Below are positions 7,890-62,895 of a stretch of DNA of 64,000 nucleotides, piece after piece. The position numbers were made by a program, and so were the translations under genes. The notes under the pieces were generated by a model. The model was given only the letters and a program-made list of their open reading frames with translations. It had not been told where the DNA came from and searched no databases. The DNA is from an uncultured Aquabacterium sp. (GTDB taxonomy: Bacteria > Pseudomonadota > Gammaproteobacteria > Burkholderiales > Burkholderiaceae_C). The stretch covers positions 124,001 to 188,000 of the forward strand of contig NZ_CAJYGK010000086.1 in the NCBI RefSeq assembly GCF_913773725.1, written 5' to 3'. Positions within the stretch are counted from its first letter, which is position 1. Each line of letters opens with the position of its first letter.

Positions 7890-9115
7890 AGCCCACCCGC
7901 CCGGCCGAGCCCGGTCCCCTGCGACTGGCCCACCTGTTGTGGGCTCCCCACCGCCTTGGCTTCTTTCTGGCGGCCCTGAACCTGCTGGCCGTCTCGGGCT
8001 GGTGGGCCTGGTTCAACGCCCTGCGCTGGACGGGCCACCCCGGCATGGCCCTGCCTCCCGGCTGGCTGCACGCGCAGCTGATGGTCGGTGCCTTCATGCC
8101 GCTGTACTTCACCGGCTTTCTGTTCACCGCCGGCCCGCGCTGGCTGAACGTGACGGCGCCCACGGCACCGCAGCTGCTGCGCGGCAGCGTGGCGCTGTGC
8201 GCCGGGTGGTGGGTCGCAGCCATTGGCGCATATTGGCACCCTGCCTGGACCAGTGCCGGGCTGCTGCTGAGCCTGCTGGGCTGGCTGGACCTGCTGGTCC
8301 GCTTCATCGGGCTGCTGCGCCAGAGCCGGCAGGAGGACACCCTGCATGCCCGTTTGATTGCCGTGTCGGGCTGTGTGGGCGCCGTGCTGCTGGCGGTGTC
8401 TGCGGTGGCCCTGCAGCAAGGCGCCTGGCCGCTGTGGCACGCCACGTTGCTGGGCCTGCTGTGGTTCTGGATCGCCCCAGTGTTCGTGGTGGCGCTGCAC
8501 CGCATGATTCCCTTCTTCACGGCCGCGGCCATGCCGGCGCTCGACGCGTGGCGCCCGAACTGGCTGCTGTGGACGCTGCTGACCGGCCTGTGGGCCCAGG
8601 GCGTCCTGCACGTCGGGGATGCGCTCGGGGTGCTGCCCCGCGCGACGCTGCCCGGCCACGTGCGCCCGGCTCTGGCACTGCCTTGGGGCCTGCTCGTGAT
8701 CGCCCTGGGCGTGCGCTGGGGCCTGGTCCAGAGCCTGCGCATTCGCCTGCTCGCCATGCTGCACCTGGGCTTTGTCTGGCTGGGCGTGGCCTTTCTGCTC
8801 GAGCTCCACGCCGATCCGCTGCTGGCCGTGCATGCACTGGCCATCGGATCGCTGGGTTCGCTGCTCATGGCCATGGTGACCCGTGTGAGTTGCGGCCACG
8901 GCGGCCGCACGCTGGTGGCCGACGACTTCGTCTGGGCGGTGTTCCTGGCCCTTCAGGCCGTGGCCCTCACCCGACTGGCCGCCCAGCTGTGGCCTGCGGC
9001 CGCGCCGTGGCTGACCATCGGGGCCGCGTGGGGCTGGATGGCGGTGGCGGGCGTGTGGTCCGTGCGGCTGATCCGCTGGTACCTGCGCCCCCGGGTCGAC
9101 GGGCGGCCGGGCTGA
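7886..9115 (+). CDS. nnrS: NnrS family haem-copper membrane protein
   Basis: A 409-residue polytopic membrane protein with about 12 hydrophobic segments. NnrS proteins are regulated with denitrification genes and protect cells during nitric-oxide stress. Family features include HRLGFFLAALNLL near the N-terminus, the GWLHAQLMVGAFMPLYFTGF segment, LHRMIPFFTAAA, and a late MAMVTRVSCGHGGR segment. The start overlaps the stop of the Crp/Fnr gene (ATGA at 7886), so the two are co-translated. Its stop abuts the stop of convergent ubiT with no gap: TGATCA at 9113-9118 serves both. Confidence 0.93.
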   Translation: MKPTRPAEPGPLRLAHLLWAPHRLGFFLAALNLLAVSGWWAWFNALRWTGHPGMALPPGWLHAQLMVGAFMPLYFTGFLFTAGPRWLNVTAPTAPQLLRGSVALCAGWWVAAIGAYWHPAWTSAGLLLSLLGWLDLLVRFIGLLRQSRQEDTLHARLIAVSGCVGAVLLAVSAVALQQGAWPLWHATLLGLLWFWIAPVFVVALHRMIPFFTAAAMPALDAWRPNWLLWTLLTGLWAQGVLHVGDALGVLPRATLPGHVRPALALPWGLLVIALGVRWGLVQSLRIRLLAMLHLGFVWLGVAFLLELHADPLLAVHALAIGSLGSLLMAMVTRVSCGHGGRTLVADDFVWAVFLALQAVALTRLAAQLWPAAAPWLTIGAAWGWMAVAGVWSVRLIRWYLRPRVDGRPG

Positions 9116-15684: not shown

Positions 15685-17013
15685 CTACGGCATCTGACGG
15701 ACGCTGGCGGCCAGACAGCCCGCCAGGTGCCGCGCAGACTTGACGCTGACACCCTTGCCGGTGATCGACAGCGCCGGGGGATGGGCGAGCATCCGCACGA
15801 AGACGTCCCGGACTTCTTCCGCGCGGATGTCGTCGATCAAGGCCATGGTCTCGGACAGCGGCGTCACGCTCCCGCTGGCCCAGAGTTCTTCGACGGCCCG
15901 CTCCATCGTCGCGAAGGGTCGCTCACTGGCACGCACGTACGAGACGGTCAACTGGTTCTTCGCGCGCTCCAGATGGACAGGATCAATGCGGGTCGTCTGG
16001 GCATGCAGCAGCTCGCCCGTCACCTGAACCAGCGCCTCGATCTTGTCCGGGGTGGTCACCGCATGCACCAAGAAATTGAGCCAGTTGTCTCCACCGTCGA
16101 TGCTCGCATCGGCCGTGTAGGCCAGGCCGAGCCGCTCGCGCACCGTGTCGACCAACGGGGCAGACATCCCGCAGCCGAACAGATTGGCCGCAAGCGCGGC
16201 GGCCAGACGCAAGCGCCGCGATGGCATGTCGTCCGGGCCCGTGGGCATCACGGGATACGCAACGTTCAGGAACACCTGCGAGACTTGGGTAAAGCGCCGG
16301 GCCACCGCCTGGCCGGCATATGCCGCGGGCGTGGGTGGATGCGACCCGACGCCGTCGGTCGATGCCGGCATGGCCGCGAACAGATCCTCGGCGTGGCTCA
16401 TCCACGCGTCGACGTCGAAGTGGCCGGCCGCGACGACAACCGTGTTGTCGGCCACGTAATGCCGCTGCACATGGCGAACCAGATCGTCGCGCGTGAAGCC
16501 CTCGATGTTCTCGACCGTGCCGATGACGGGCATGCCCATGGGATGGCCCCCCCAGATGGCGCGGTCGAGCAGGTCGTTGCCACTGTCGTCGGGGTCTTCG
16601 TCGTACTCGATGGCTTCCTGGCGGATCACCTCCAGTTCGCGCTGCAGTTCAACTTCGGGAAACGTGCTGTGGAGCACGATGTCGGCCGTCATGCCGAGCA
16701 GTTGCTGCGCGTGCGCGCCCAGGCCGGTCATGAAATAGCCGGTGCTGTCCTTGCCCGTGTAGGCGTTGACGTCCGCGCCCAGCCGCTCCGCATCCAGGTT
16801 GATCGCCTGCACGGAACGCGTGGTGGTGCCCTTGAAGGCCATGTGCTCAAGGACATGGCCGATGCCATTGGTGGCGGGCGTTTCGTCGCGAGACCCGACG
16901 CGCAGGAAGACGCCCACGCTGACGCTCCGTACGTGGGGCATGGGAAGGGCCAACAGCCGGACACCGTTGGGCAGCGTACGGAGAAGCGGCTGGGTACCAA
17001 TTTCATCTTGCAT
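15685..17013 (-). CDS. M16-family zinc metallopeptidase
   Basis: A 442-residue pitrilysin/processing-peptidase-like protein. The inverted zinc motif HxxEH is at His53, Glu56 and His57 (HVLEHMAF), and a downstream acidic segment VIRQEAIEYDEDPDD provides the usual third ligand region. The later GLAYTADASIDGG matches the active-site Arg/Tyr lobe of the family. The start MQDEIGTQPLLRTLPNGVRL at 17013 is typical, since the family begins with a short strand before LPNGLRV. No signal peptide is seen. The substrate is unknown. Confidence 0.9.
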   Translation of the reverse strand: MQDEIGTQPLLRTLPNGVRLLALPMPHVRSVSVGVFLRVGSRDETPATNGIGHVLEHMAFKGTTTRSVQAINLDAERLGADVNAYTGKDSTGYFMTGLGAHAQQLLGMTADIVLHSTFPEVELQRELEVIRQEAIEYDEDPDDSGNDLLDRAIWGGHPMGMPVIGTVENIEGFTRDDLVRHVQRHYVADNTVVVAAGHFDVDAWMSHAEDLFAAMPASTDGVGSHPPTPAAYAGQAVARRFTQVSQVFLNVAYPVMPTGPDDMPSRRLRLAAALAANLFGCGMSAPLVDTVRERLGLAYTADASIDGGDNWLNFLVHAVTTPDKIEALVQVTGELLHAQTTRIDPVHLERAKNQLTVSYVRASERPFATMERAVEELWASGSVTPLSETMALIDDIRAEEVRDVFVRMLAHPPALSITGKGVSVKSARHLAGCLAASVRQMP

Positions 17014-51986: not shown

Positions 51987-53351
51987 TCAACCGGTCTGAC
52001 CCGGGATCCAGCTCGTGCCGGCCAGCGGCACCTGGGCCATGGCCGCGGCCTCCACCGTCAGGGCCACCAGGTCTTCCGGCTCCAGATGGTGCACGTCCTG
52101 CTTGCCGCAGGCGCGGGCCAGCGTGGTCAGCTCCATGGTCAGCGTCTTGAGGTAGTTCTTGAGGTGCTTGGCACCCCATTCCGGCTCCAGGCGCTTTTCC
52201 AGCACGGCGTCCTGCGTGGTCACGCCCACCGGGCACTTGCCCGTGTGGCAGTGGTGGCAGAAGCCGGGCGCGGTGCCCAGCGCGGCGTAGTCGGCCTCGG
52301 CGCTGTGCTGCTGGCCGCCTTGCTGGTAGGTGTCGCGGTTGCAACCCAGGGCCATCAGCACGCCCTGGCCGATGGCCACGGCGTCGGCACCCAGGGCCAG
52401 GGCCTTGGCCACGTCGGCGCCGGTGCGGATGCCGCCCGACACGATCAGCTGCACGGTCCCCTTCATGTCGAGGTCTTCCAGCGCGGCCACGGCCTGGCGC
52501 ACGGCGGCCAGGGTCGGGATGCCCACGTGCTCGATGAAGCAGGTCTGCGTGGCGGCGGTGCCACCCTGCATGCCGTCGACCACGACCACGTCGGCACCGG
52601 CGTGCACGGCCAGCTTGACGTCGTTGTAGACGCGGGTGGCGCCCACCTTCACGTAGATCGGCTTTTCCCAGTCGGTCAGTTCGCGCAGTTCCTGGATCTT
52701 GATGGCCAGGTCATCGGGGCCGGTCCAGTCGGGATGGCGGCAGGCCGAGCGCTGGTCCACGCCTTCCGGCAGGGTGCGCATCTTGGCCACGCGCGGGTTC
52801 ACCTTCTGGCCCAGCAGCATGCCGCCGCCGCCCGGCTTGGCGCCCTGGCCCAGCACCACCTCGATGGCATCAGCCTTGCGCACGTCGTCGGGGTTGAAGC
52901 CGTAGCGCGAAGGCAGGCACTGGTACACCAGCGTCTTCGACGAGCGACGCTCTTCCTGCGTCATGCCGCCGTCACCGGTGGTGGTCGAGGTGCCCATGGC
53001 GGTGGCCGCCAGGCCCAGGGCTTCCTTCACGTTGGCCGACAGCGCGCCGAAGCTCATGCCGGCCACGGTGATGGGGGTGTCCAGCACGATGGGCTTCTTG
53101 GCGAAACGGGTGCCCAGCACGGTCTTGGTGCTGCACTTCTCGCGGTAGCCCTCCAGCGGGTAACGCGACAGGGAGGCGCCCAGGAAGACCAGGTCATCGA
53201 AGTGCGGCAGCTTGCGCTTGGCGCCCAGGCCGCGGATTTCGTACAGGCCGGTGTTCGAGGCGCGGTGGATGTAGTCCAGCGTGCTGCGGTCGAACGACGC
53301 GGATTCTTCGCGTTGCAGGCGCTTGAAGGTGATGGGGTGTTCGGTGCTCAT
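51987..53351 (-). CDS. glxD: FMN-binding glutamate-synthase-like protein (GlxD/MgsC type)
   Basis: A 454-residue protein equal to the central FMN domain of glutamate synthase as a separate chain. It has SFGALSANVKEALGLAA, a TIM-barrel FMN site (GADVVVVDGMQGGTAATQ, IVSGGIRTGADVAKALALGA) and the [3Fe-4S] cysteines in CHHCHTGKCPVGVTTQD. In N-methylglutamate synthase, subunit C has this form. It is the last gene of glnT-glxB-glxC-glxD, 11 bp after glxC. The product could be glutamate or an N-alkyl glutamate. Confidence 0.9.
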   Translation of the reverse strand: MSTEHPITFKRLQREESASFDRSTLDYIHRASNTGLYEIRGLGAKRKLPHFDDLVFLGASLSRYPLEGYREKCSTKTVLGTRFAKKPIVLDTPITVAGMSFGALSANVKEALGLAATAMGTSTTTGDGGMTQEERRSSKTLVYQCLPSRYGFNPDDVRKADAIEVVLGQGAKPGGGGMLLGQKVNPRVAKMRTLPEGVDQRSACRHPDWTGPDDLAIKIQELRELTDWEKPIYVKVGATRVYNDVKLAVHAGADVVVVDGMQGGTAATQTCFIEHVGIPTLAAVRQAVAALEDLDMKGTVQLIVSGGIRTGADVAKALALGADAVAIGQGVLMALGCNRDTYQQGGQQHSAEADYAALGTAPGFCHHCHTGKCPVGVTTQDAVLEKRLEPEWGAKHLKNYLKTLTMELTTLARACGKQDVHHLEPEDLVALTVEAAAMAQVPLAGTSWIPGQTG

Positions 53352-53362
53352 GACAGGGCTCC

Positions 53363-54052
53363 TCAGTAGGTTTGATCAGCGTCTGCGTTCCAGTGGTACA
53401 GCGAGCGAGCGGAAGCCACGCGCTTGAAGTCCTGCGGCTTGTGGTTCAGGCCCGCGGCGGCCAGCAGCTCGGTCAGCGCGGTGATGTCGCTGTCGCCCAG
53501 TGGCTCCAGCTGCGCATCGGCGCCCAGGCTCTTGATCTCGCCCTTCACGTAGATCACGGCTTCGTACAGCGAGTCGCCCAGAGCGTCGCCCGCGTTGCCG
53601 CAGATGACCATGCGGCCGGCTTGTGCCATGAAGCCCGAGAAGCTGCCGACCGAGCCCCCCACCACGATGTCGCCGCCCTTGAGCGAGATGCCGCAGCGCA
53701 GGCCCGCATCGCCGTCGATGATCAGCAGGCCACCGTGGGCCGAGGCCCCGGCGCTGTTCGAGGCAAAGCCCTTCACGTGCACCTTGCCGCTCATCATGTT
53801 CTCGGCCACGCCGGTGCCGGCGCTGCCATTGATGGTCACGTCGGCCAGCTTGTTCATGCCGGCGGCGTAGTAGCCTGCGTGGCCATCGATGGTCACCTTC
53901 ACCGGGGCGTTCAGGCCCACGGCGATGTTGTGGGCGCCATCGGGGTTCACGACGGTGATGTGCTGACCGGTCAGCTCGGCTGCCGGGCCGTGCAGGTGCT
54001 GGTTGAGCGGGCGAACGCCACCCTGGCTCAGGTCAAAGGTCAGGCTTTCCAT
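53363..54052 (-). CDS. glxC: GXGXG-domain glutamate-synthase-like protein (GlxC/MgsB type)
   Basis: A 229-residue protein equal to the beta-helical C-terminal domain of glutamate synthase. Repeated Gly motifs are seen: NGSAGTGVAENMMSG, IDGDAGLRCGISLKGG and ICGNAGDALGDSLYEA. It starts inside the glxB stop region (13-bp overlap) and is 11 bp before glxD. It probably forms a complex with the other two chains, placing the substrate tunnel. Confidence 0.9.
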   Translation of the reverse strand: MESLTFDLSQGGVRPLNQHLHGPAAELTGQHITVVNPDGAHNIAVGLNAPVKVTIDGHAGYYAAGMNKLADVTINGSAGTGVAENMMSGKVHVKGFASNSAGASAHGGLLIIDGDAGLRCGISLKGGDIVVGGSVGSFSGFMAQAGRMVICGNAGDALGDSLYEAVIYVKGEIKSLGADAQLEPLGDSDITALTELLAAAGLNHKPQDFKRVASARSLYHWNADADQTY

Positions 54053-54948
54053 ACGTACATCTCCTCAGGGGCAGGTTCAAAGACGGTGGCGTGCTTCACA
54101 TCGGGCAGGTGGGCCAGCGAGCGGAACTCGGAGGCAATGGCCACGTAGTCGTCGGTTTCGGCCACCACGGCCGGTTTGCAGGCAAAGGGGTCGCGGATCA
54201 GGGCCAGTTCGGTCGACGTGCCCATCAGGAAGGTGAAGAAGCCATCCAGCGCTTCGAAGCCCTTCTGCAGCGCGTTGTGCAGGGTGTCGCCTTCGCGCAG
54301 ACGCCACTCCAGGAAGCGGCACGCCGCCTCGGTGTCGTTGTCGGTTTCGAACTTGATGCCACGCGGCTCGAGCATGCGGCGCACGCCGTTCGGGTTCGAC
54401 AGCGAGCCGTTGTGCACCAGGCAGAAGTCTTCACCGGCGGTGAAGGGGTGTGCGCGGTCCGGCGTCACGGCCGACTCGGTGGCCATGCGGGTGTGGCCGA
54501 CCAAGTGGCTGCCTTGCAGCTGGCTGAACTGGTAGCGGGCGGCCACTTCAGCCGGTGTGCCGATGTCCTTGTACAGGTCGATGCTGCGGCCGGTCGACAG
54601 CAGGTGCAGCTTCGGACCGTAGGCCTTGACGAAGGCCTTGACCGGCTCGGCCGCGCCCTCGAAGGTGATCACGGCATGGTTGGCCTTGACGCTCGCCTTG
54701 GCCTGGACCTTCAGCTCGGCGTTGAGCGCGTCCAGCAGGGCCGACCAGTCGTAGTCGTTGCCTTCCTCGGTCAGGCCCGAGTACACGCTGATCTTGCGCA
54801 GGCCCGCGGGCAGCGGGTCGGTGAACACGGCCAGGCCGGCCGAATCGGGGCCACGCTCGGTCATGCCGATGAGCATGGGCACCATGAGCTCGCCGAGCTG
54901 GCTGCGCAGCGCGGGCTTCTTGAGGAGCAATCCAACGATTCCACACAT
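54040..54948 (-). CDS. glxB: Class II glutamine amidotransferase (GlxB/MgsA type)
   Basis: A 302-residue Ntn-type amidotransferase. The N-terminus MCGIVGLLLKKPAL gives Cys2 as the nucleophile after Met removal. Other family parts are MTERGPDSAGLAVF, GHTRMATESAVTPDRAHPF and LVHNGSLSNPNGVRR. It releases ammonia from glutamine for transfer to an acceptor on GlxD. It lies 18 bp after glnT. As the glutaminase, synthase and FMN domains are three proteins, this is a split glutamate-synthase-like enzyme. Confidence 0.93.
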   Translation of the reverse strand: MCGIVGLLLKKPALRSQLGELMVPMLIGMTERGPDSAGLAVFTDPLPAGLRKISVYSGLTEEGNDYDWSALLDALNAELKVQAKASVKANHAVITFEGAAEPVKAFVKAYGPKLHLLSTGRSIDLYKDIGTPAEVAARYQFSQLQGSHLVGHTRMATESAVTPDRAHPFTAGEDFCLVHNGSLSNPNGVRRMLEPRGIKFETDNDTEAACRFLEWRLREGDTLHNALQKGFEALDGFFTFLMGTSTELALIRDPFACKPAVVAETDDYVAIASEFRSLAHLPDVKHATVFEPAPEEMYVWKA

Positions 54949-54966: not shown

Positions 54967-56361
54967 TCAGAAAAATTCCAGGTATTGCTTGACTTCCCAG
55001 TCCGAGACATGGCGCTGGTATTCGATCCACTCCATGCGCTTGAGCTTGAGGAACTCCTTGGCGACCGGGCCGAGGGCGCCCGTGATCAGCTCGTCGGCTT
55101 CCAGCGCATCCAGGGCGGCGCCCAGGTTCTGCGGCAAGAGGCCAATGCCCGCATCCTTGAGCTGTGCATCGCTCCACTCGTAGAGGTTCACGTTGCGCGG
55201 GGCACCCGGGTCCAGCTTGCGGTCGATGCCATCGAGACCGGCTGCGATCACGGCGGCCGTGGCCAGGTAGGGGTTGCAGGCACCGTCAGGCAGGCGCAGT
55301 TCCAGACGACCCTTGGGCACGCGCACCATGGTCGAGCGGTTGTTGTCGCCGTAGCTGATGTAGGCCGGGGCCCAGGTGGCGCCGGTCAGCGAGCGGCCCA
55401 CCACCAGGCGCTTGTACGAGTTCACCGTCGGGGCGCACAGCGCGGTCAGGGCCGGCGCGTGGGCCAGCAGGCCGCCCAGGAAGTGATAGGCCATGGGCGA
55501 CAGCTCCAGCCCGTTGGCATCGGCCTTGTCACAGAACAGGTTGCGCTTGCCGTCGCCGATGGACAGGTGCATGTGCATGCCGTTGCCCGGGCGGTTGGCA
55601 AAGGGCTTGGGCATGAACGAGCACACCAGGCCCATCTCGTTGGCGATCTCGGCGGCCGCCATCTTGAAGAACACAAAGTGATCACACGAGGTGAGACAGT
55701 CTGTGTAGGTGTAGTTCAGTTCGAACTGACCGTTGGCATCTTCGTGGTCGATCTGGTAGACGTCGATGCCGGTGGCGCGCATCACGTTGGAGAGCTTCTC
55801 CAGGTAGGCGCGGGTGCGCGACAGGCCCTTGTAGTCATAGCAGGGCTTGGCCAGCGTGTCGCTGGGGTCGCAGGGCTCGATGCCGCCGGACTCGGTGCGA
55901 CGCAGCAGCGAGAACTCGGGCTCCAGACCGGTGAACATCGTCAGGCCGCGCTCGGCCAGACGGGCCACCTGCTTCTTCAGCGTGACGCGGCTGTCGTAGA
56001 CCCAGGGTTCGCCTTCCACATGGCCTTCGCACACGATGCGGGCCAGGCCGGGCTGCCAGGGCACCAGCGAGACGGTGCTCAGGTCGCCGCGGGCCATGAA
56101 GTCCGGGCCGTGGGGCTCGATGCCGACGCCGCAGATGGCGAAGCCGGCGAAACCGGCGCCGTCGGTCAGCACGGTTTCCAGATGCGCCACTGGCACCGAC
56201 TTTGCCTTCGCCACACCGTGGATGTCGACAAACTGGGCCAGCACATAGGACACGCCCTGGGCACGCAGGTATTGCTGCGCTTCTTCGACGGTGTCGAAAC
56301 GCACGGGGGGCACGAGTTCGCCGGGCGGGGCATCAAGGGGAAGGGGGATGGCAGCGTTCAA
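54967..56361 (-). CDS. glnT: Type III glutamine synthetase-like protein GlnT (or gamma-glutamylmethylamide synthetase)
   Basis: A 464-residue glutamine-synthetase-family protein. It has the N-terminal beta-grasp domain and the ATP/catalytic domain with [13 protein letters not shown] (metal-binding Glu), [19 protein letters not shown] and [19 protein letters not shown]. The family includes GlnT of rhizobia and GmaS, which condenses glutamate with methylamine; sequence alone does not separate them. It leads the glnT-glxBCD operon behind a sigma-54 promoter within an inverted-repeat operator. Confidence 0.92.
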
Positions 56362-56440: not shown

Positions 56441-56480
56441 GTGTTTCCTGTAATGCAACTAGTGTGCCTGCAAGGAAACA
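56441..56480. promoter_or_regulatory. Inverted-repeat operator between glnT and the XRE-cupin gene
   Basis: GTGTTTCCT (56441-56449) and AGGAAACA (56473-56480) form inverted arms 23 bp apart; they extend to GGTGTTTCCT and AGGAAACACC. The same arms with the same 23-bp gap occur upstream of glnK at 60992-61031. The adjacent XRE-cupin protein is the most likely ligand. Confidence 0.72.
56454..56469 (-). promoter_or_regulatory. Sigma-54 promoter of glnT
   Basis: On the minus strand AGGCAC-ACTAG-TTGCA differs from TGGCAC-N5-TTGCA at one base, with GG and GC 10 bp apart. It lies between the two operator arms, so a bound repressor would cover it. The glnT ATG is about 90 bp downstream. Confidence 0.75.
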
Positions 56481-56500
56481 CCATTTTGGTGAGCGAGGCG

Positions 56501-56534
56501 CTGCGTTTCAGGTGTCCACGTACACTGCGTTTCA
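56501..56534. repeat. Direct repeat before the XRE-cupin gene
   Basis: CTGCGTTTCA occurs at 56501-56510 and again at 56525-56534, 24 bp apart, just upstream of the XRE-cupin gene. It may be a promoter or operator element; no function is known. Confidence 0.35.
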
Positions 56535-56558
56535 CGGCAATGTTCAAAGGAGCGAGGC

Positions 56559-57161
56559 TTGGATAGGGACCAGAGCGGCAACCTGCCATCACTGGAAGAA
56601 ACCGTGGGTGCGGCCATCCGCGAGCAGCGGCAGCGGCACAGCCTCACCCTGGCACAGGTGGCTGAACAGGCGGGCATCAGCCGCGGCATGCTGTCCAAGA
56701 TCGAGAACGGGCAGACCACAGCCGGCATGGACACCTTGGCCCGCATTGCGCGCGTGCTGGGCGTGTCGATGTCGATGCTGTTCAGCAAGTACGACGCGAC
56801 CTCCAGCTCGGCGCAGCACATCAAGAAGGGCGCCGGCATGGAAGTGGTGCGTCGGGGCACCAAAAGCGGGCATACCTACCACCTGCTGGCCTACGACCAG
56901 GGCCCGGTCAAGCTGTTCGAGCCCTTTCTCATCACCATCGACGATGACACGGAGCGCTACCCGACCTTCGAGCACCCGGGGCACGAGTTCCTCTACATGC
57001 TGGAAGGCAAGATCGAATACCGGGTCGGGCAGGAAACCTACCTGCTCGAACCCGGTGATTCGCTGTCTTTCGAAGGGGAAGTGCCGCACGGGCCGGAACG
57101 CCTGGCCAAGTGCCCGATCAAGTTCCTGTCGGTGATCGTGTACCCGCGCCAGGCAGACTGA
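56559..57161 (+). CDS. XRE-family regulator with C-terminal cupin domain
   Basis: A 200-residue protein. An N-terminal Cro/C1-type helix-turn-helix (TLAQVAEQAGISRGMLSKIE, residues about 15-75) is followed by a cupin barrel (about 115-197) with HPGHEFLYMLEGKIEY and PGDSLSFEGEVPHGPE. Such regulators control amine and amino-acid catabolism. The start is an unusual TTG at 56559, chosen because AAAGGAG lies at 56546-56552 and no suitable ATG exists. It is divergent from glnT and probably binds the operator at 56441-56480. Confidence 0.9.
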   Translation: MDRDQSGNLPSLEETVGAAIREQRQRHSLTLAQVAEQAGISRGMLSKIENGQTTAGMDTLARIARVLGVSMSMLFSKYDATSSSAQHIKKGAGMEVVRRGTKSGHTYHLLAYDQGPVKLFEPFLITIDDDTERYPTFEHPGHEFLYMLEGKIEYRVGQETYLLEPGDSLSFEGEVPHGPERLAKCPIKFLSVIVYPRQAD

Positions 57162-57190
57162 GTGCTGCCTGACCGGGTGAACACACTGTC

Positions 57191-57787
57191 TCACTCGGTG
57201 AGCAGGGTGTGCAGCAACAGGCTGTCCGCCTCTGCCGGCTGGATGGCAAGGCGGGTGGTGCCCCCTTGCCAGTGCAGGCCTTCTGCGGCCTCGATGCGGA
57301 TGCCGACGGGCAAGGCCTCGCCCGCCAGATCGAAGGTGCCACGCAGGACCCAGATCAGGCTGTGCCCCCGCTCGGGCAGAACCAGCTTGTCACGAACCAG
57401 ACGGGTGCGGGCCGTGGCGCGTCCCCTTTGGGTCATGACGTTCCAGAACAGGGTGTCATCGGCGGGCGCCGTGTTGCGCAGCGCCAGTTCGCCCGGGTAC
57501 TGTGCGGTGTCGCCCGGCTCGGACAGCGTCCACTGTTGCTCGGCCGCCAGCAGCGAGACGGGCCCGCCCTGCACCAGCACCGTTGTGCGGTCGATGCCAT
57601 CGAACACGGAGAAGGGCGCCGCCTCGGTGATTTCGGCCAGGCTCACCCGCCATGGCGGCGGGGTCCCGGCGTCGGCCTGCGCAACCAGCCGGGTCCACCC
57701 CTTGCCGTTGCGCCAGCGTTCGCGTGGCAGTGTGGCCAGCGAGAGTCGGGTCAGGCCCTCCGGGAGGGCCATCACGTGCGTGATCAC
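57191..57787 (-). CDS. hutD: HutD/Ves-family cupin-like protein
   Basis: A 198-residue HutD-type protein with the hallmark ERWRNGKGWTRLV near the N-terminus and FSVFDGIDRTTVLVQGGPV. HutD is associated with histidine-utilisation genes and is thought to limit pathway activity; its mechanism is unknown. It follows the flavoprotein gene directly: GTG at 57787 is immediately after the upstream stop (TGAGTG). An internal ATG at 57772 is an alternative start. Confidence 0.85.
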   Translation of the reverse strand: MITHVMALPEGLTRLSLATLPRERWRNGKGWTRLVAQADAGTPPPWRVSLAEITEAAPFSVFDGIDRTTVLVQGGPVSLLAAEQQWTLSEPGDTAQYPGELALRNTAPADDTLFWNVMTQRGRATARTRLVRDKLVLPERGHSLIWVLRGTFDLAGEALPVGIRIEAAEGLHWQGGTTRLAIQPAEADSLLLHTLLTE

Positions 57788-58975
57788 TCAGGACACCGCA
57801 CCCAGGCCGTACTTGCCCGTTAGCAGCTGACCGGTGCTGAACCGCTCCAGCGCATACGGTGCCAGCGACACATCGGTCGGCAGGCCCAGTGCCTCTTGCG
57901 CCAGCACGCGGCCGACCGCCGGAGACAGCTTGAAGCCATGGCCCGAGAAGCCATAGCCCACGATCAGGCCCTGGATGCCGGGCAGACGGCCCAGCACCGG
58001 GTTCCAGTCGGGGGTGACGTCGTAGACGCCGGTCCACGACGAGGCCAGGCCGGCGGTCTCGTAAGCCGGGAAGCGCTCGGCCACCTGGGCACCGACCTCG
58101 ACCACGTAGTCCATCGAGATGTCGCCCTGCTCGTTGTCCGGCACGGCCAGCGTCTCGCCGACGATGCCTTCGCTCACCAGCATCTGGTTGCCGCCATAGC
58201 TGCGGCAGTACAGCATGCCCGGCGAGCCCAGGTCCTTGAAGACGGGCATCTTGAAGGTGTAGTGCGCATCGGCGCATTCCAGGGCCAGCACGGCGTGGCG
58301 CTCGGGCACCACGGGGGTGGGGATGCCGGTCCAGCGCTCGATGTCGGTGGCCCAGATGTTCTGCGTGCTGATGACCGTGTTGCTGCGGAAGGTGCCCTGC
58401 GAGGTTTCGACGCCGCAGACGCGGCCGTTGTCCACCAGCAGCTTCTCGACGTTGACGCCCTCCATGATCTTGACGCCCAGGCGGCGTGCGGCGCGGGCAA
58501 AGCTCGTGGCCACGAGGTAGGCATCGGCGAAGCCGGCTTCGGGCTCGTAGCCGATCAGCGCGGCGTCATCGAAGTGGGCAATGGGCAGCAGCGAGCGGGC
58601 TTCTTCCTTGCCCAGGAACTGGACTTCGATGCCCATGGCACGCTGACCCTCCAGGGCCAACTGCAGCGGAGACAGCTTGGGGCCGTCCGGCGCGCAGATC
58701 AGGTAGCCACACTTGACCAGGCCGGATGCGGCTTCCTCGTCTTCCAGGTAGGCCGAGAAGTCGGTGAAGACCGACCACGAGCGCTTTGCCAGCTCCACGT
58801 TCTCGATCACCGAGTAGTGCGTGCGCAGGATGCCCGAGGACTGCGTGCTGGTGCCGGCACCGATCTGCGACCGGTCCAGCACGAGCACCTTCTTCGCGCC
58901 GAAACGGGCAAGGTGGTAAGCAACCGAAGAGCCGATCACACCGGCCCCGATCACGATGGCGTCATAGCTTTCCAT
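57788..58975 (-). CDS. FAD-dependent oxidoreductase of the sarcosine oxidase/DadA group
   Basis: A 395-residue DAO-type flavoprotein. It begins MESYDAIVIGAGVIGSSVAY (FAD motif), with SGILRTHYSVIENVELAKRS and the C-terminal IVGYGFSGHGFKLSPAVG typical of sarcosine oxidase beta-like proteins. It should oxidise a secondary or tertiary amine such as an N-alkyl amino acid to an imine. The start at 58975 is preceded by AGAAAGG; a longer frame needs a TTG start. Neighbours (glx genes, hutG) make an N-substituted glutamate a possible substrate, an inference. Confidence 0.88.
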   Translation of the reverse strand: MESYDAIVIGAGVIGSSVAYHLARFGAKKVLVLDRSQIGAGTSTQSSGILRTHYSVIENVELAKRSWSVFTDFSAYLEDEEAASGLVKCGYLICAPDGPKLSPLQLALEGQRAMGIEVQFLGKEEARSLLPIAHFDDAALIGYEPEAGFADAYLVATSFARAARRLGVKIMEGVNVEKLLVDNGRVCGVETSQGTFRSNTVISTQNIWATDIERWTGIPTPVVPERHAVLALECADAHYTFKMPVFKDLGSPGMLYCRSYGGNQMLVSEGIVGETLAVPDNEQGDISMDYVVEVGAQVAERFPAYETAGLASSWTGVYDVTPDWNPVLGRLPGIQGLIVGYGFSGHGFKLSPAVGRVLAQEALGLPTDVSLAPYALERFSTGQLLTGKYGLGAVS

Positions 58976-59123
58976 CGTCAGCCTTTCTGGGTTCAAGAGG
59001 TTGGGATGGAGTCAGCGTAGTCGCGCCTGGCATGGCTCTTGTTAGATGAAGAAAATCACCATCAGAGATGCGGAAAAACTGAAGTTGGCCGTGTCTGCCC
59101 CGAACCCCTTGAGGATGCCCGAC

Positions 59124-60143
59124 ATGGCGATACCCAAAGCGTCACCTGCCCAACGCCGACATGCCGGGGTGCCCGATCTGCGCGCCCTGGAAATCTTTGT
59201 CGCGGTCTGCGATGCCAGCTCGATGGTCCTGGCGGCCGAACGTCTGGGCCTGAGCCAGAGCGCCGTGAGCCAGTCCATCAAGTCACTGGAAGAAGACCTG
59301 GGCCTGCAGTTGATGGACCGCGAAGTGCGGCCGGCACGGCCCACGCTGGCCGGACGCCTGATGCACGAGGCCTCGGCCCAGCTGCTGGCGCAGGCGCGTC
59401 TGGCAATGGACCGGGTGCGGGCTTCCGCGCGACAGGAGATGGAGCAGATCCGTCTGGGCTGCGTCGATTCGTTCGCGGCCACCGTGGGCCCGCAGCTCAT
59501 CAAGGCGATGGCCGGCAAGGCGCGCCAGATCCGTATGTGGTCGGGCCTGACGCCCGGACTGGCCGACCAGATGCAGGGACGCGAGCTCGACATGGTCATC
59601 TGCACCGAATCTGCGGTGGAAGACCCCCGCGTCTCGCAGCGTCTGCTGTTCTCGGAGTCCTGGGTGGCGGTCTATCCCAAGCACCACAGCCTGCCTGTGC
59701 TGACCTCCTTGCGCGGGCTGTCTGCGGCGGCTGGCAAGCTGCCCTTGATCCGCTACAGCCAGCGTTCGGTCACGGGCCAGCAGATCGAGCGCTTCCTGCG
59801 CCATGTGGGCGTCGATGCGCCGCGTTGCTACGAGTTCGATGCCACCGACCCGCTGCTCAGCCTGGTGGCCTCCGGCCTGGGCTGGGCCCTGAGCACGCCC
59901 TTGTGCCTGTGGCAGTCGCGGCAGTACCTCGATGCCGTCAACGTCGTGCCCCTGCCCGCGAGTCGGCTGGGGCAGCGTCATTTCTTTCTGCTGTCGCGCG
60001 AAGGCGAGTGGGCCGGGCTGGATGAAGAGGTCGTGCGGGTCACGCGCGACGTCATCCGCCTCGACACCGCGCCGGCCATCCGCAAGGCCATCCCCGCCCT
60101 CGCGCCGGCAGCCCTGTCCTGTCCTGAAGAGGATTTCACATGA
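59124..60143 (+). CDS. LysR-family regulator upstream of hutG
   Basis: A 339-residue LysR regulator. The winged helix is at LRALEIFVAVCDASSMVLAA and LSQSAVSQSIKSLEEDLGLQ; the rest is the effector domain. The frame extends to 59046, but the stretch before 59124 is AT-richer than coding DNA here, and the ATG at 59124 has GAGG upstream. The shorter form leaves about 148 bp for promoters shared with the divergent flavoprotein gene. Its stop overlaps the hutG start as ATGA. Confidence 0.87.
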   Translation: MAIPKASPAQRRHAGVPDLRALEIFVAVCDASSMVLAAERLGLSQSAVSQSIKSLEEDLGLQLMDREVRPARPTLAGRLMHEASAQLLAQARLAMDRVRASARQEMEQIRLGCVDSFAATVGPQLIKAMAGKARQIRMWSGLTPGLADQMQGRELDMVICTESAVEDPRVSQRLLFSESWVAVYPKHHSLPVLTSLRGLSAAAGKLPLIRYSQRSVTGQQIERFLRHVGVDAPRCYEFDATDPLLSLVASGLGWALSTPLCLWQSRQYLDAVNVVPLPASRLGQRHFFLLSREGEWAGLDEEVVRVTRDVIRLDTAPAIRKAIPALAPAALSCPEEDFT

Positions 60144-60958
60144 AGATCGACACGCCCACCTACACCTTCACGTCCGGCACGCTGCCGCTGCTGATCTCGA
60201 TGCCCCACCTGGGCACGCACATCCCCGCGCCATTGCAGACCGGCATGGCCGATGTGGCCGGCATCCGCCAGGACACCGACTGGCACCTCGACCGCCTGTA
60301 CGCCTTCGCGCGCGAGATGGGCGCGTCCATCATCCAGGCCAAGGTGTCTCGTTATGTGATCGACCTGAACCGCCCGCCCAATGGCGAAAGCCTGTATCCC
60401 GGGCAGACCACGACGTCGCTGTGCCCGATGGACACCTTCCGCGGCGAGCCGCTGTACCTGCCGGGCCATGTGCCGGACGACGCCGAGCAGGCGCGGCGCC
60501 TGGAAACGTACTGGCGGCCGTACCACGAACAGATCCGCACCGAGCTGGATCGGCTGAAGGCGTTGCATGGCGCGGTGATGCTGTGGGATGCCCACTCGAT
60601 TGCCAGCGTGTTGCCGCGCCTGTTTGAAGGCCGTCTGCCGGACCTGAACTTCGGCACGGCCGATGGCCGCAGCTGCGATCCCGCCATCCTGTCGGCGGTC
60701 GTCGATGTGGCGCGCACGGGGCCCTACACGCATGTCGTCAACGGGCGCTTCAAGGGCGGCTACATCACGCGTCATTACGGTCAGCCCTCCGACGGCATCC
60801 ACGCCATCCAGCTGGAGATGAGCCAGCGCCTGTACATGCAGGAAGACGCGCCGTTCTCGTATGAGCCGGACGTGGCCGGTCAGGTTCAGCCGCTGCTCGA
60901 GGCCATGCTGCGGGCCGGTCTGGCACAGCTGAGCGTGACACGCGCTGGTGCAGTCTGA
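60140..60958 (+). CDS. hutG: N-formylglutamate amidohydrolase HutG
   Basis: A 272-residue protein of the N-formylglutamate deformylase family, which splits N-formylglutamate into formate and glutamate. Conserved stretches are LLISMPHLGTHIP, RQDTDWHLDRLYAFA, YVIDLNRPPNGESLYPGQTT and MLWDAHSIASVLPRLFEGRL; these give zinc-ligand His, Asp and Glu. The other histidine-degradation genes (hutH, hutU, hutI, hutF) are absent, so the deformylase may work on another source of N-formylglutamate. It is co-translated with the LysR gene. Confidence 0.92.
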   Translation: MKIDTPTYTFTSGTLPLLISMPHLGTHIPAPLQTGMADVAGIRQDTDWHLDRLYAFAREMGASIIQAKVSRYVIDLNRPPNGESLYPGQTTTSLCPMDTFRGEPLYLPGHVPDDAEQARRLETYWRPYHEQIRTELDRLKALHGAVMLWDAHSIASVLPRLFEGRLPDLNFGTADGRSCDPAILSAVVDVARTGPYTHVVNGRFKGGYITRHYGQPSDGIHAIQLEMSQRLYMQEDAPFSYEPDVAGQVQPLLEAMLRAGLAQLSVTRAGAV

Positions 60959-60991
60959 TCCCCGCAATGGGGCGGTGCACCGGGGTGCGGC

Positions 60992-61031
60992 GTGTTTCCT
61001 GTGGTTAATCAACGTATCTCAATAGGAAACA
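60992..61031. promoter_or_regulatory. Inverted-repeat operator upstream of glnK, same as at glnT
   Basis: GTGTTTCCT (60992-61000) and AGGAAACA (61024-61031) have the same arms and 23-bp gap as the operator at 56441-56480. The right arm ends 1 bp before the sigma-54 promoter of glnK. Confidence 0.72.
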
Positions 61032-61032
61032 T

Positions 61033-61049
61033 TGGCACAGGGGTTGCAT
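61033..61049 (+). promoter_or_regulatory. Sigma-54 promoter of glnK-amtB
   Basis: TGGCAC-AGGGG-TTGCAT matches the sigma-54 consensus exactly, with GG and GC 10 bp apart. It is 56 bp before the glnK ATG. Sigma-54 and NtrC control is standard for glnK-amtB. Confidence 0.92.
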
Positions 61050-61087: not shown

Positions 61088-61444
<357 letters not shown>

Positions 61445-61464: not shown

Positions 61465-62895
61465 ATGATGTTGAAAGCTCTACTTGCTGCCGCAGCCCTG
61501 GGTGCGGCGTGGGCCGTGCCCGCTCATGCTCAGGAAGCCACTGCCGCTGCGACGGCGGCTGCCTCCGCGGCCGAGGCCGTTGCACCGGTGGTTCAGAAGG
61601 GCGATGCCGCCTGGATCATCGTGGCCACCGTGCTGGTGATCCTGATGGCCGTGCCCGGGCTGCCGCTGTTCTATGGCGGCATGGTGCGCGCCAAGAACAT
61701 GCTGTCGGTGATGATGCAGGTGATGATCACCTTCTCGTTGCTGGGCGTGCTGTGGTGCCTGTACGGCTACAGCCTGGCCTTCACCGAGGGCAACGCCTTC
61801 TTCGGCGGGTTCGACAAGGCCTTCCTGAAGGGGGTGACGGTCGACACGCTGGCCGGCACCTTCAGCAAGGGCGTGTACATTCCCGAGTACCTGTACGTCG
61901 CCTTCCAGATGACGTTCGCGGCCATCACGCCGGCCCTCATCATCGGCTCACTGGCTGAGCGTGTGAAGTTCTCGGCCCTGCTGCTGTTCATGGTGCTGTG
62001 GTTCACGTTCAGCTACCTTCCGCTGGCCCACATGGTGTGGTTCTGGGCGGGTCCGGACGCCTACACCAGCGCACAAGCGGCGGATGCCGCGGGTGCCACG
62101 GCCGGCTTCCTGTTCCAGAAGGGTGCCATCGACTTCGCGGGCGGCACCGTGGTGCACATCAACGCGGCCATGGCGGGTCTGGTGGGGGCCTTCATGATTG
62201 GCCGCCGCGTCGGGTTCGGCAAGGAGCCGATGCCGCCGCACAGCCTCACGATGACGATGATCGGTGCCTCGCTGCTGTGGGTGGGCTGGTTCGGCTTCAA
62301 CGTCGGCTCCAACCTCGAGGTGTCGGGCACGGCGGGCCTGGCCTTCCTCAACACCTTCCTGGCCACCTGTGCTGCCACGGTGTCTTGGACGCTGGTCGAG
62401 TGGTTCGCCAAGGGCAAGCCCTCGATGCTGGGTGCGGCCTCGGGTGCCATCGCTGGTCTGGTGGCCATCACGCCGGCCTGCGGCTTCGTCGGCCCGATGG
62501 GCGGGATGGTGATCGGTCTGCTGGGCGGCGTGGTGTGCTACTGGGGTGTCAACGGCCTCAAGCGCATGCTGGGTGTCGACGACAGCCTGGACGTGTTCGG
62601 CGTGCACGGCGTGGGTGGCATCCTGGGTGCGCTGCTGACCGGGGTGTTCGCTTCGCCGGCCCTGGGTGGCACGGGTGTGTACGACTACGTGACCAACAGT
62701 GTGGCCGACTACGACATGGCGGCTCAGATGCTGAGCCAGCTGTGGGGCGTGGGCGTGGCCGTGGTGTGGTCGGGCGTGGTGTCCTACGTGGCCTTCAAGG
62801 TGGCCGACCTGACCCTGGGTCTGCGCGTGAGCGAAGACGAAGAGCGCGAAGGGCTGGACCTGAGCGCGCACGGTGAGCGGGCATATCACCTGTGA
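61465..62895 (+). CDS. amtB: Ammonium transporter AmtB
   Basis: A 476-residue ammonium channel. A signal-peptide-like N-terminus (residues about 1-24, ending AHA) is followed by 11 membrane segments. Conserved parts include GLPLFYGGMVRAKNMLSVMM, the pore His in YLPLAHMVWFW, GGTVVHINAAMAGL and the second His in DVFGVHGVGGILGALLTG. It imports ammonium at low concentration under GlnK control. A strong hairpin terminator follows at 62920. Confidence 0.96.
   Translation: MMLKALLAAAALGAAWAVPAHAQEATAAATAAASAAEAVAPVVQKGDAAWIIVATVLVILMAVPGLPLFYGGMVRAKNMLSVMMQVMITFSLLGVLWCLYGYSLAFTEGNAFFGGFDKAFLKGVTVDTLAGTFSKGVYIPEYLYVAFQMTFAAITPALIIGSLAERVKFSALLLFMVLWFTFSYLPLAHMVWFWAGPDAYTSAQAADAAGATAGFLFQKGAIDFAGGTVVHINAAMAGLVGAFMIGRRVGFGKEPMPPHSLTMTMIGASLLWVGWFGFNVGSNLEVSGTAGLAFLNTFLATCAATVSWTLVEWFAKGKPSMLGAASGAIAGLVAITPACGFVGPMGGMVIGLLGGVVCYWGVNGLKRMLGVDDSLDVFGVHGVGGILGALLTGVFASPALGGTGVYDYVTNSVADYDMAAQMLSQLWGVGVAVVWSGVVSYVAFKVADLTLGLRVSEDEEREGLDLSAHGERAYHL

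Follow-up and report, generated by a model that had tools for sequence, protein, structure and literature searches.

A tandem double dyad as putative operator of a proposed XRE-cupin repressor at sigma-54-type promoters of a methylamine cluster

An inverted repeat that occurs twice in the window (the whole 64-kb stretch of DNA analysed) is probably the operator of the adjacent XRE-cupin protein, which would repress methylamine assimilation by competing with the sigma-54 polymerase and thereby place the genes under two-signal control. Sequence comparison establishes that the site exists and is conserved, that it goes with the xre gene, how it is placed with respect to sigma-54 cores and what kind of genes are located downstream. 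The putative operators, O1 and O2, and the neighbouring features are listed in Table 1.

Table 1. Features of the methylamine cluster around the two repeats
Feature	Position	Strand	Basis or remark
glxD-like FMN glutamate-synthase-family protein (mgsC-like)	51987..53351	-	PF01645, E 1.3e-94
glxC-like GXGXG protein (mgsB-like)	53363..54052	-	PF01493
glxB-like glutamine amidotransferase (mgsA-like)	54040..54948	-	PF13522, PF13537
glnT, gmaS-like glutamate-methylamine ligase	54967..56361	-	TIGR03105; start uncertain
Putative operator O1	56443..56479	.	37-bp frame within the first repeat; exact repeat, frame kept in relatives
O1 half-sites	GTTTCC 56443-56448, TGCAAC 56454-56459, TGTGCC 56463-56468, GGAAAC 56474-56479
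glnT sigma-54 core GGCACACTAGTTGC	56455..56468	-	inside O1; read from sequence
XRE-cupin regulator gene (HTH_3 + Cupin_2), proposed repressor of O1/O2	56559..57161	+	PF01381, PF07883
NtrC-like site CGCAATGGGGCGGTGCA	60963..60979	.	upstream of O2; weak, 1 mismatch to GCAC-N7-GTGC
Putative operator O2	60994..61030	.	37-bp frame within the second repeat; exact repeat, kept before linked glnK/amtB
O2 half-sites	GTTTCC 60994-60999, TTAATC 61005-61010, GTATCT 61014-61019, GGAAAC 61025-61030
glnK sigma-54 core GGCACAGGGGTTGC	61034..61047	+	begins 3 bp past O2; read from sequence
glnK, PII protein of cluster-bound pair	61106..61444	+	NF007946, 185.4 bits vs cut-off 181
amtB, ammonium (possibly methylammonium) transporter of cluster-bound pair	61465..62895	+	Amt family

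The repeat and its inner half-sites

The initial annotation had described a 40-bp inverted repeat with identical arms and gap at glnT and glnK, and GTGTTTCCT-N23-AGGAAACA is indeed present at 56441-56480 and 60992-61031, the arms being complementary over 9 bases in the first copy (GTGTTTCCT/AGGAAACAC) and over 8 in the second. The arms stand, but the gap is not an inert 23-bp spacer, since it contains two weaker half-sites in register with the outer ones. As a sequence, the element is better described as a pair of tandem 17-bp dyads, GTTTCC-N5-GGAAAC, located 3 bp apart. It is possible, although doubtful, that the element is instead a single dyad, spaced by 23 bp, to which one elongated or looped dimer binds, with inner matches that are only sigma-54 elements. 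The outer half-sites of O2, much stronger than the inner ones, agree with that arrangement; however, the inner half-sites are found in register where no sigma-54 element overlaps them, in the glnK/APC class and in Pseudomonas. At loci without an overlapping core they exceeded shuffled sequences (p 1.5e-4 and 5e-5), in a test that left out G245 as a near copy of G167 and in which the Pseudomonas locus L039 was entered in a wrong frame; its correct site has 12/12 inner matches.

The element is rare. None of 100 dinucleotide shuffles of the window produced a match, and no further site with 8-base arms and N23 was found in the window at up to three mismatches. The genome-wide search for the pattern proposed in the initial annotation was run on the assembly of this organism (4,507,128 bases in 163 contigs, 99.3% complete), where the 8-base arms, matched exactly and separated by 20 to 26 bases, occur at 2 places, both of them the window sites. 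At up to three mismatches 8 places appear, the two window sites and 6 others, each with exactly 3 mismatches, against 1 place for the reversed control pattern. A profile was built from 20 sites of 15 groups, the scanned group being withheld, with shuffles that preserve local base composition and not dinucleotides. With the organism's own genome left out, it ranked O1 first (39.8) and O2 second (30.3) in the window, scored the 6 other places between -17.3 and 12.7 and, in a relative, detected a site ahead of a trimethylamine monooxygenase gene. The full motif was not found in many copies at unrelated genes. The bare core TTTC-N27-GAAA is unspecific genome-wide (30 places, 16 for the control), and places were therefore ranked by profile; over 35 positions, two places on a contig of 6.9 kb (C138) scored 20.7 and 20.3, above the remaining places and below the window sites (37.4 and 27.9 over the same positions).

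Conservation together with the xre gene

Between species the exact arms proved too strict as a search pattern and were dropped; exact GTTTCC-N25-GGAAAC has a match in 26 of 250 family genomes, which is a tally of genomes and not of sites at glnT or glnK. In the intergenic region between xre and glnT of Burkholderiales, TTTC-N27-GAAA is present within one mismatch in 11/11 rows and exactly in 5, the best rival gap length reaching 5/11. These rows comprise neither the near-identical copies of the window (L031, L032) nor the presumed duplicates of G033, G138 and G137 (L033, L034, L035), nor the loci lacking such a region (L038, G059, G249, G061, G173). On the glnT side of Pseudomonas, TTCC-N25-GGAA is found within one mismatch in 7/7 rows, where the inner matches number 8 to 12 of 12, while TTTC-N27-GAAA, also 7/7, is there poorly set apart from other gaps (6/7); 7 of the 10 rows were used, L042, L043 and L047 being near-identical. 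That the repeats are due to chance, or are a recent functionless copy, has a practically negligible probability: there are only two copies, in one genome and 4.5 kb apart, but shuffles never produce the motif, the two sites are unlike in their centres and flanks, and the in-register conservation across genera refutes it.

The distribution of the core follows that of xre. Before xre-linked glnK/amtB the exact core is present in 5/8 loci, with a sixth found by profile, against 0/23 readable unlinked amtB loci in genomes of the same family; at glnT it is exact in 4/9 loci with an adjacent xre and absent from the 21 loci read without one. The linked copies of G246 and G059 lack the core, as do L215 and L167-L169, the latter carrying xre orthologues of G061 and G173, and the match at L214 looks like chance. 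In G059 and G249, TGTTG-N29-CAACA takes the place of the core. Of the 11 genomes in the glnT subclade one, G171 (83% complete), showed no xre orthologue. The methylamine cluster is plasmid-borne in A. olei NBRC 110486, and the plasmid locus L208, from A. olei, is not independent of the window.

The xre gene does lie beside the first repeat, as annotated initially, O1 being located in the intergenic region that xre shares with glnT and overlying the sigma-54 core. XRE-cupin repressors typically have an intergenic site that is next to the regulator's gene and within a core promoter; a palindromic site is a further trait of theirs, present at O1 and O2. The protein combines an N-terminal HTH_3 domain (PF01381, 57.4 bits) with a C-terminal cupin (PF07883, 49.5 bits), both above cut-off. 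PuuR (NF007408) is its best NCBIfam match, but identity with PuuR was rejected, the score of 49.2 bits being far below the cut-off of 211. Since the motif accompanies xre across genera and was not found at the 21 glnT loci read without it or at the 23 readable unlinked amtB loci, the adjacent XRE-cupin is the best candidate for the single regulator that had been proposed to join both operons; this association is sustained across genera, and binding is a prediction. The pairing of recognition helices with half-sites (SRGM with TGTTTC, SQGM with ATTCC, SRSL with TGTTGC) is suggestive of covariation, in groups too few to count. It is improbable that another factor, such as the LysR protein of the cluster, NtrC or IHF, binds the repeat and xre is merely a neighbour. 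The cluster in the window does include a LysR gene, and the genome encodes NtrC; yet ten Pseudomonas loci (L039-L048) carry xre by glnT and no LysR orthologue detectable by tblastn, with the double dyad in the 7 rows examined, the motif is missing at the 23 unlinked amtB loci, and the arms are unlike the NtrC consensus, GCAC-N7-GTGC.

Downstream genes and the proposed mechanism

The operon behind O1 had been named glnT-glx. Its first product scores 634.6 bits with TIGR03105 (cut-off 469.6), and its best match among solved structures is 9qur, 'Glutamate--methylamine ligase' (E 1.5e-222). glnT is hence a glutamate-methylamine ligase homologue and, as three glutamate-synthase-like subunits follow it, the operon is gmaS-mgsABC-like. 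O2 does precede glnK, as proposed, but the glnK-amtB of the cluster is an extra pair: a second PII-amtB pair is located at C61, amtB is one among 4 Amt-family matches in the genome, and none of the other three Amt genes has the TTTC-N27-GAAA core at its locus. A search of the genome for the N-methylglutamate dehydrogenase MgdABCD gave one SoxA-type protein above cut-off (C53), beside glyA-like and other sarcosine-type genes and not distinguishable from sarcosine oxidase.

Both predicted sigma-54 cores fit GG-N10-GC in TGGCAC/TTGC context, with TGGCAC-N5-TTGC at glnK and aGGCAC-N5-TTGC at glnT. The GG of the glnT core is in one inner half-site of O1 and the GC in the other, and among 8 other xre-linked glnT loci a pattern search located a core in this position in 5 further relatives. 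At glnK, the spacing from O2 to the core is the same in G033, G138, G167, G245 and G185. The initial annotation placed the regulator on top of NtrC control. Because both promoters have sigma-54 cores and the genome encodes NtrC, NtrC control of both beneath the operator is plausible, but an NtrC-like site is present at glnK alone (at one mismatch, with 0.14 expected in the stretch); none was found at glnT at up to one mismatch to the consensus.

We infer binding by the XRE-cupin protein, the number of dimers, repression, a ligand and the input of NtrC. Two dimers would sit side by side on the 37-bp site, with about two helical turns between their centres. At gmaS-mgsABC the -24/-12 elements fall on the inner half-sites, so that repressor and sigma-54 polymerase would be mutually exclusive; at glnK-amtB the operator abuts the -24 element and would obstruct the polymerase from upstream. 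Full expression would require nitrogen limitation, acting through NtrC and sigma-54, together with a ligand derived from methylamine, which would occupy the cupin domain and free the repressor from the DNA. It is unlikely that the protein binds but activates or co-activates these promoters: O2, at a fixed distance upstream of the glnK -24, could also serve an activator, but the glnT operator overlies the -24/-12 elements themselves, and the studied relatives in P. aeruginosa are all inhibitors (PMC7901475). The broader idea, for and against which the chances seem evenly balanced, is that a widespread XRE-cupin family governs the use of methylated amines through a tandem double dyad whose inner half-sites also serve as the -24/-12 elements, one sequence that repressor and sigma-54 polymerase would read alternately. 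If so, the promoter would be a hard AND gate for nitrogen shortage and substrate, and the targets of the family would be gmaS-mgs and glnK-amtB, with trimethylamine monooxygenase or an APC permease added in some genomes.

Relation to known systems

NtrC/sigma-54 control of glnK-amtB is a known system, from which the present case differs in the extra pair and in a second site over or against the core promoter; the operator offers a possible reason for this pair travelling with the cluster. The domain layout of the XRE-cupin is the same as that of PuuR of Escherichia coli. Among open PMC papers no study of an XRE-cupin regulator for the N-methylglutamate pathway was found, and for beta- and gammaproteobacteria the present protein and site are a candidate regulator and operator of this methylamine pathway. 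A regulator of the pathway for which published tests were found is TmaR of Ruegeria pomeroyi, which controls the same genes, including gmaS-mgs and tmm, belongs to the AraC family, unrelated to XRE-cupin, and is mostly an activator (PMC13390433). In TMA/DMA/MMA clusters of Rhodobacteraceae an XRE-family gene and an ammonium transporter recur; the accessible portion of that source gives the XRE-family genes as neighbours only and states no operator, target or function (PMC7574528).

In P. aeruginosa, the published XRE-cupin proteins repress locally, binding core promoters at palindromic sites (PMC7901475). PauR, PsdR, ErfA, PA0535 and others resemble the present case in the HTH and cupin domains, the gene placed by its target and the palindromic site at a core promoter, and PauR serves a gamma-glutamylation pathway for amines (PMC7901475). 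The likeness is one of description; here the genes form a methylamine cluster, the promoters are of the sigma-54 type and the putative operator is a tandem double dyad. With this site, the way in which a substrate-specific repressor may overlie a sigma-54 core promoter becomes directly testable.

The repeat and its occurrence in the genome

The inverted repeat GTGTTTCCT-N23-AGGAAACA, described in the initial annotation as identical at glnT and glnK with the gene of an XRE-cupin regulator (xre) beside the first copy, was recovered by pattern search at the exact places proposed, with xre directly to its right, and the pattern was absent from all 100 shuffled versions of the window. Throughout the assembly (4.5 Mb, 163 contigs) the exact arms occur at these two places only. 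Six more places were found at three mismatches, scoring -17.3 to 12.7 on a profile made without this genome. On that profile the two window sites score 39.8 and 30.3, ranking first and second in the 64 kb; the third rank (12.4) is the second site displaced by 20 bp, the next place scores 6.6, and the best of 20 shuffles reached 14.4. The bare core TTTC-N27-GAAA is without specificity at the scale of this genome. The repeat is a real and conserved element, most likely a functional one.

Two further places of the genome, L201:4108 and L201:5411, have profile scores of 20.7 and 20.3; both are on C138, a 6.9-kb contig whose genes look phage-like by eye.

Features at the two repeats
Feature	Position	Strand	Remark
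glnT-glxB-glxC-glxD operon		minus	left of first repeat; glnT at 54967-56361
First repeat	56441-56480		contains operator O1, 56443-56479
xre	56559-57161	plus	right of first repeat
HutD-like gene, DAO-type FAD oxidoreductase, LysR gene, hutG	57191-60958		follow xre in this order
Second repeat	60992-61031		contains operator O2, 60994-61030
glnK	61106-61444	plus	after hutG, behind second repeat
amtB	61465-62895	plus	follows glnK

Conservation of the site and its association with xre

In the xre-glnT intergenic regions of Burkholderiales the core is present with at most one mismatch in 11 of 11 rows and exactly in five, the best alternative gap length giving five of 11 and one exact. The corresponding count in Pseudomonas (7/7, exact in 5/7) is weak taken alone, because other gap lengths reach six and, for exact cores, two; on the glnT side, TTCC-N25-GGAA occurs with at most one mismatch in all seven rows, and 8 to 12 of the 12 inner positions match. 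These Pseudomonas rows have another site immediately ahead of xre (locus position 7915 in six rows, 7840 in L045). Exact cores precede four of nine xre-adjacent glnT genes and none of 21 others, and within 15 stretches selected around xre (207,951 bases) all seven exact cores are at glnT and glnK/amtB promoters of xre clusters. Plasmid loci carry the site in register in six of eight cases, one of which, L208, is nearly identical to the window; L215 has no site, and a one-mismatch match in L214, which has an exact core elsewhere (position 16865), was taken for chance. No site of this type could be placed in the L038, G061 and G173 loci or in actinobacterial orthologue loci, and genomes G059 and G249 retain a 39-bp frame but with TGTTG...CAACA; these observations, like the lack of specificity of the bare core, count against the proposed reading. 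In one actinobacterial orthologue locus (L050:4765-5000), a different inverted repeat of comparable size, GTTGACC-N24-GGTCAAC, was seen by eye between glnT and glxB.

Among xre-linked glnK/amtB promoters, five of eight have the exact core, the one in G185 carries a weaker site that keeps the distance to the sigma-54 core, and those of G246 and G059 lack a site. In a survey of 30 amtB loci from 25 genomes (6 linked to xre, 23 unlinked, L109 unreadable) the core was found in 4/6 linked versus 0/23 unlinked loci. The cluster glnK-amtB is an extra pair in its genome: three other Amt-family matches exist, on contigs C61 (67%), C116 (54%) and C143 (34%), the C61 copy following a PII gene that shares 70% identity with glnK, and the core is absent from all three loci.

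A glnT of the window's subclade (at least 60% identity, next matches at most 56%) is found in 11 of 250 family genomes, ten of which have an xre orthologue (at least 56% identity); the eleventh is G171, whose assembly is 83% complete. Genomes G249, G173 and G061 have xre without the subclade glnT.

Similar sites also precede other genes. In G167, left out of the profile, a site scoring 23.0 (shuffles at most 11.5) stands before a trimethylamine monooxygenase gene (837.7 bits, cut-off 675). An exact core before an APC permease in Acidithiobacillus caldus is weaker support: with that species excluded from the profile, it scores 19.4 and the best shuffle 17.5. A sigma-54-like core overlaps the 5' end of the G167 site (L160:1448-1484). 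In Burkholderia/Paraburkholderia (L210:12625, L211:12616, L212:12618) the space between the convergent xre and hutG genes, 3' of xre, holds a second operator-like site, 2 bp from a sigma-54-like core directed antisense through xre towards glnT; it may mark a distal promoter or serve antisense control of xre.

Proposed operator architecture and sigma-54 geometry

When sites were lined up by their outer arms alone, positions 12-17 best matched GGAAAC and positions 21-26 best matched GTTTCC in all three site classes. In the two classes whose inner half-sites are, by eye, free of any overlapping sigma-54 core, the inner matches exceeded those of shuffles (glnK/APC, five sites, p 1.5e-4; Pseudomonas, six rows, p 5e-5, the lower limit of the test). 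Hence, the single repeat with an N23 gap initially proposed stands as to arms and gap, but the gap holds inner half-sites, and the operator would be composed of two 17-bp dyads separated by 3 bp. In the glnT promoter the two inner half-sites hold the sigma-54 GG and GC, one each; for glnK the core begins 3 bp past the operator, as in G033, G138, G167, G245 and G185. This arrangement is unusual. The NtrC control proposed earlier is likely, since both promoters have sigma-54 cores and NtrC is encoded, although its sites there are weak. Adjoining O1, CACCATTTTGGTG (56480-56494) resembles an NtrC dyad with more than one mismatch to the pattern used; it is also present in G033 and partly in Cupriavidus metallidurans.

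Methylamine genes and the proposed regulator

The minus-strand operon was confirmed at the first repeat under another identity: because glnT has its best match among solved structures in a glutamate-methylamine ligase (9qur, E 1.5e-222), the glnT-glx genes are read as gmaS-mgsABC, predicted to carry out the first steps of methylamine assimilation. The clusters of C. metallidurans (dimethylamine monooxygenase subunit, purU and an ammonium transporter close by) and A. caldus (sarcosine-oxidase-like subunits, purU, folD) agree with this reading; against it counts that no MgdABCD was identified in the genome. The genes from HutD-like to hutG, which travel with the cluster, may replace N-methylglutamate dehydrogenase. 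Genes for ETF and ETF-ubiquinone oxidoreductase accompany the DAO-type oxidoreductase in two relatives.

The closest named genomes are of Aquabacterium olei, with XRE proteins 100% (a MAG) and 98% (plasmid pTB101) identical; in strain NBRC 110486 (L208) the entire cluster is on this 366-kb plasmid. The window's contig could also be of plasmid nature.

The presence of an XRE-family regulator gene and of amt in methylamine clusters is already in print: in the portions available of PMC7574528, both recur in Rhodobacteraceae TMA/DMA/MMA clusters, with no function given. In the portions available of two further papers, the AraC-family TmaR of Ruegeria binds the gmaS-mgs promoter (PMC13390433), and a putative co-clustered regulator of Methyloversatilis is induced on methylamine (PMC5023235). 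The corresponding portions of PMC5023230 and PMC8292978 add no such regulator, and searches of open PMC papers listed none that deals with an XRE-cupin protein as regulator of this pathway.

The site, its conservation, its link to xre, the sigma-54 geometry and the kind of target genes are read from the sequences themselves. The XRE-cupin protein would bind the operator, repress from it and be released by a methylamine-derived ligand, as proposed because, in the part available of PMC7901475, XRE-cupin proteins of P. aeruginosa are local inhibitors acting at core promoters, those named PsdR, PauR and ErfA have reported palindromic motifs, and PauR functions in a gamma-glutamyl-amine pathway. 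The protein and its operator are most likely a further case of XRE-cupin repressors.
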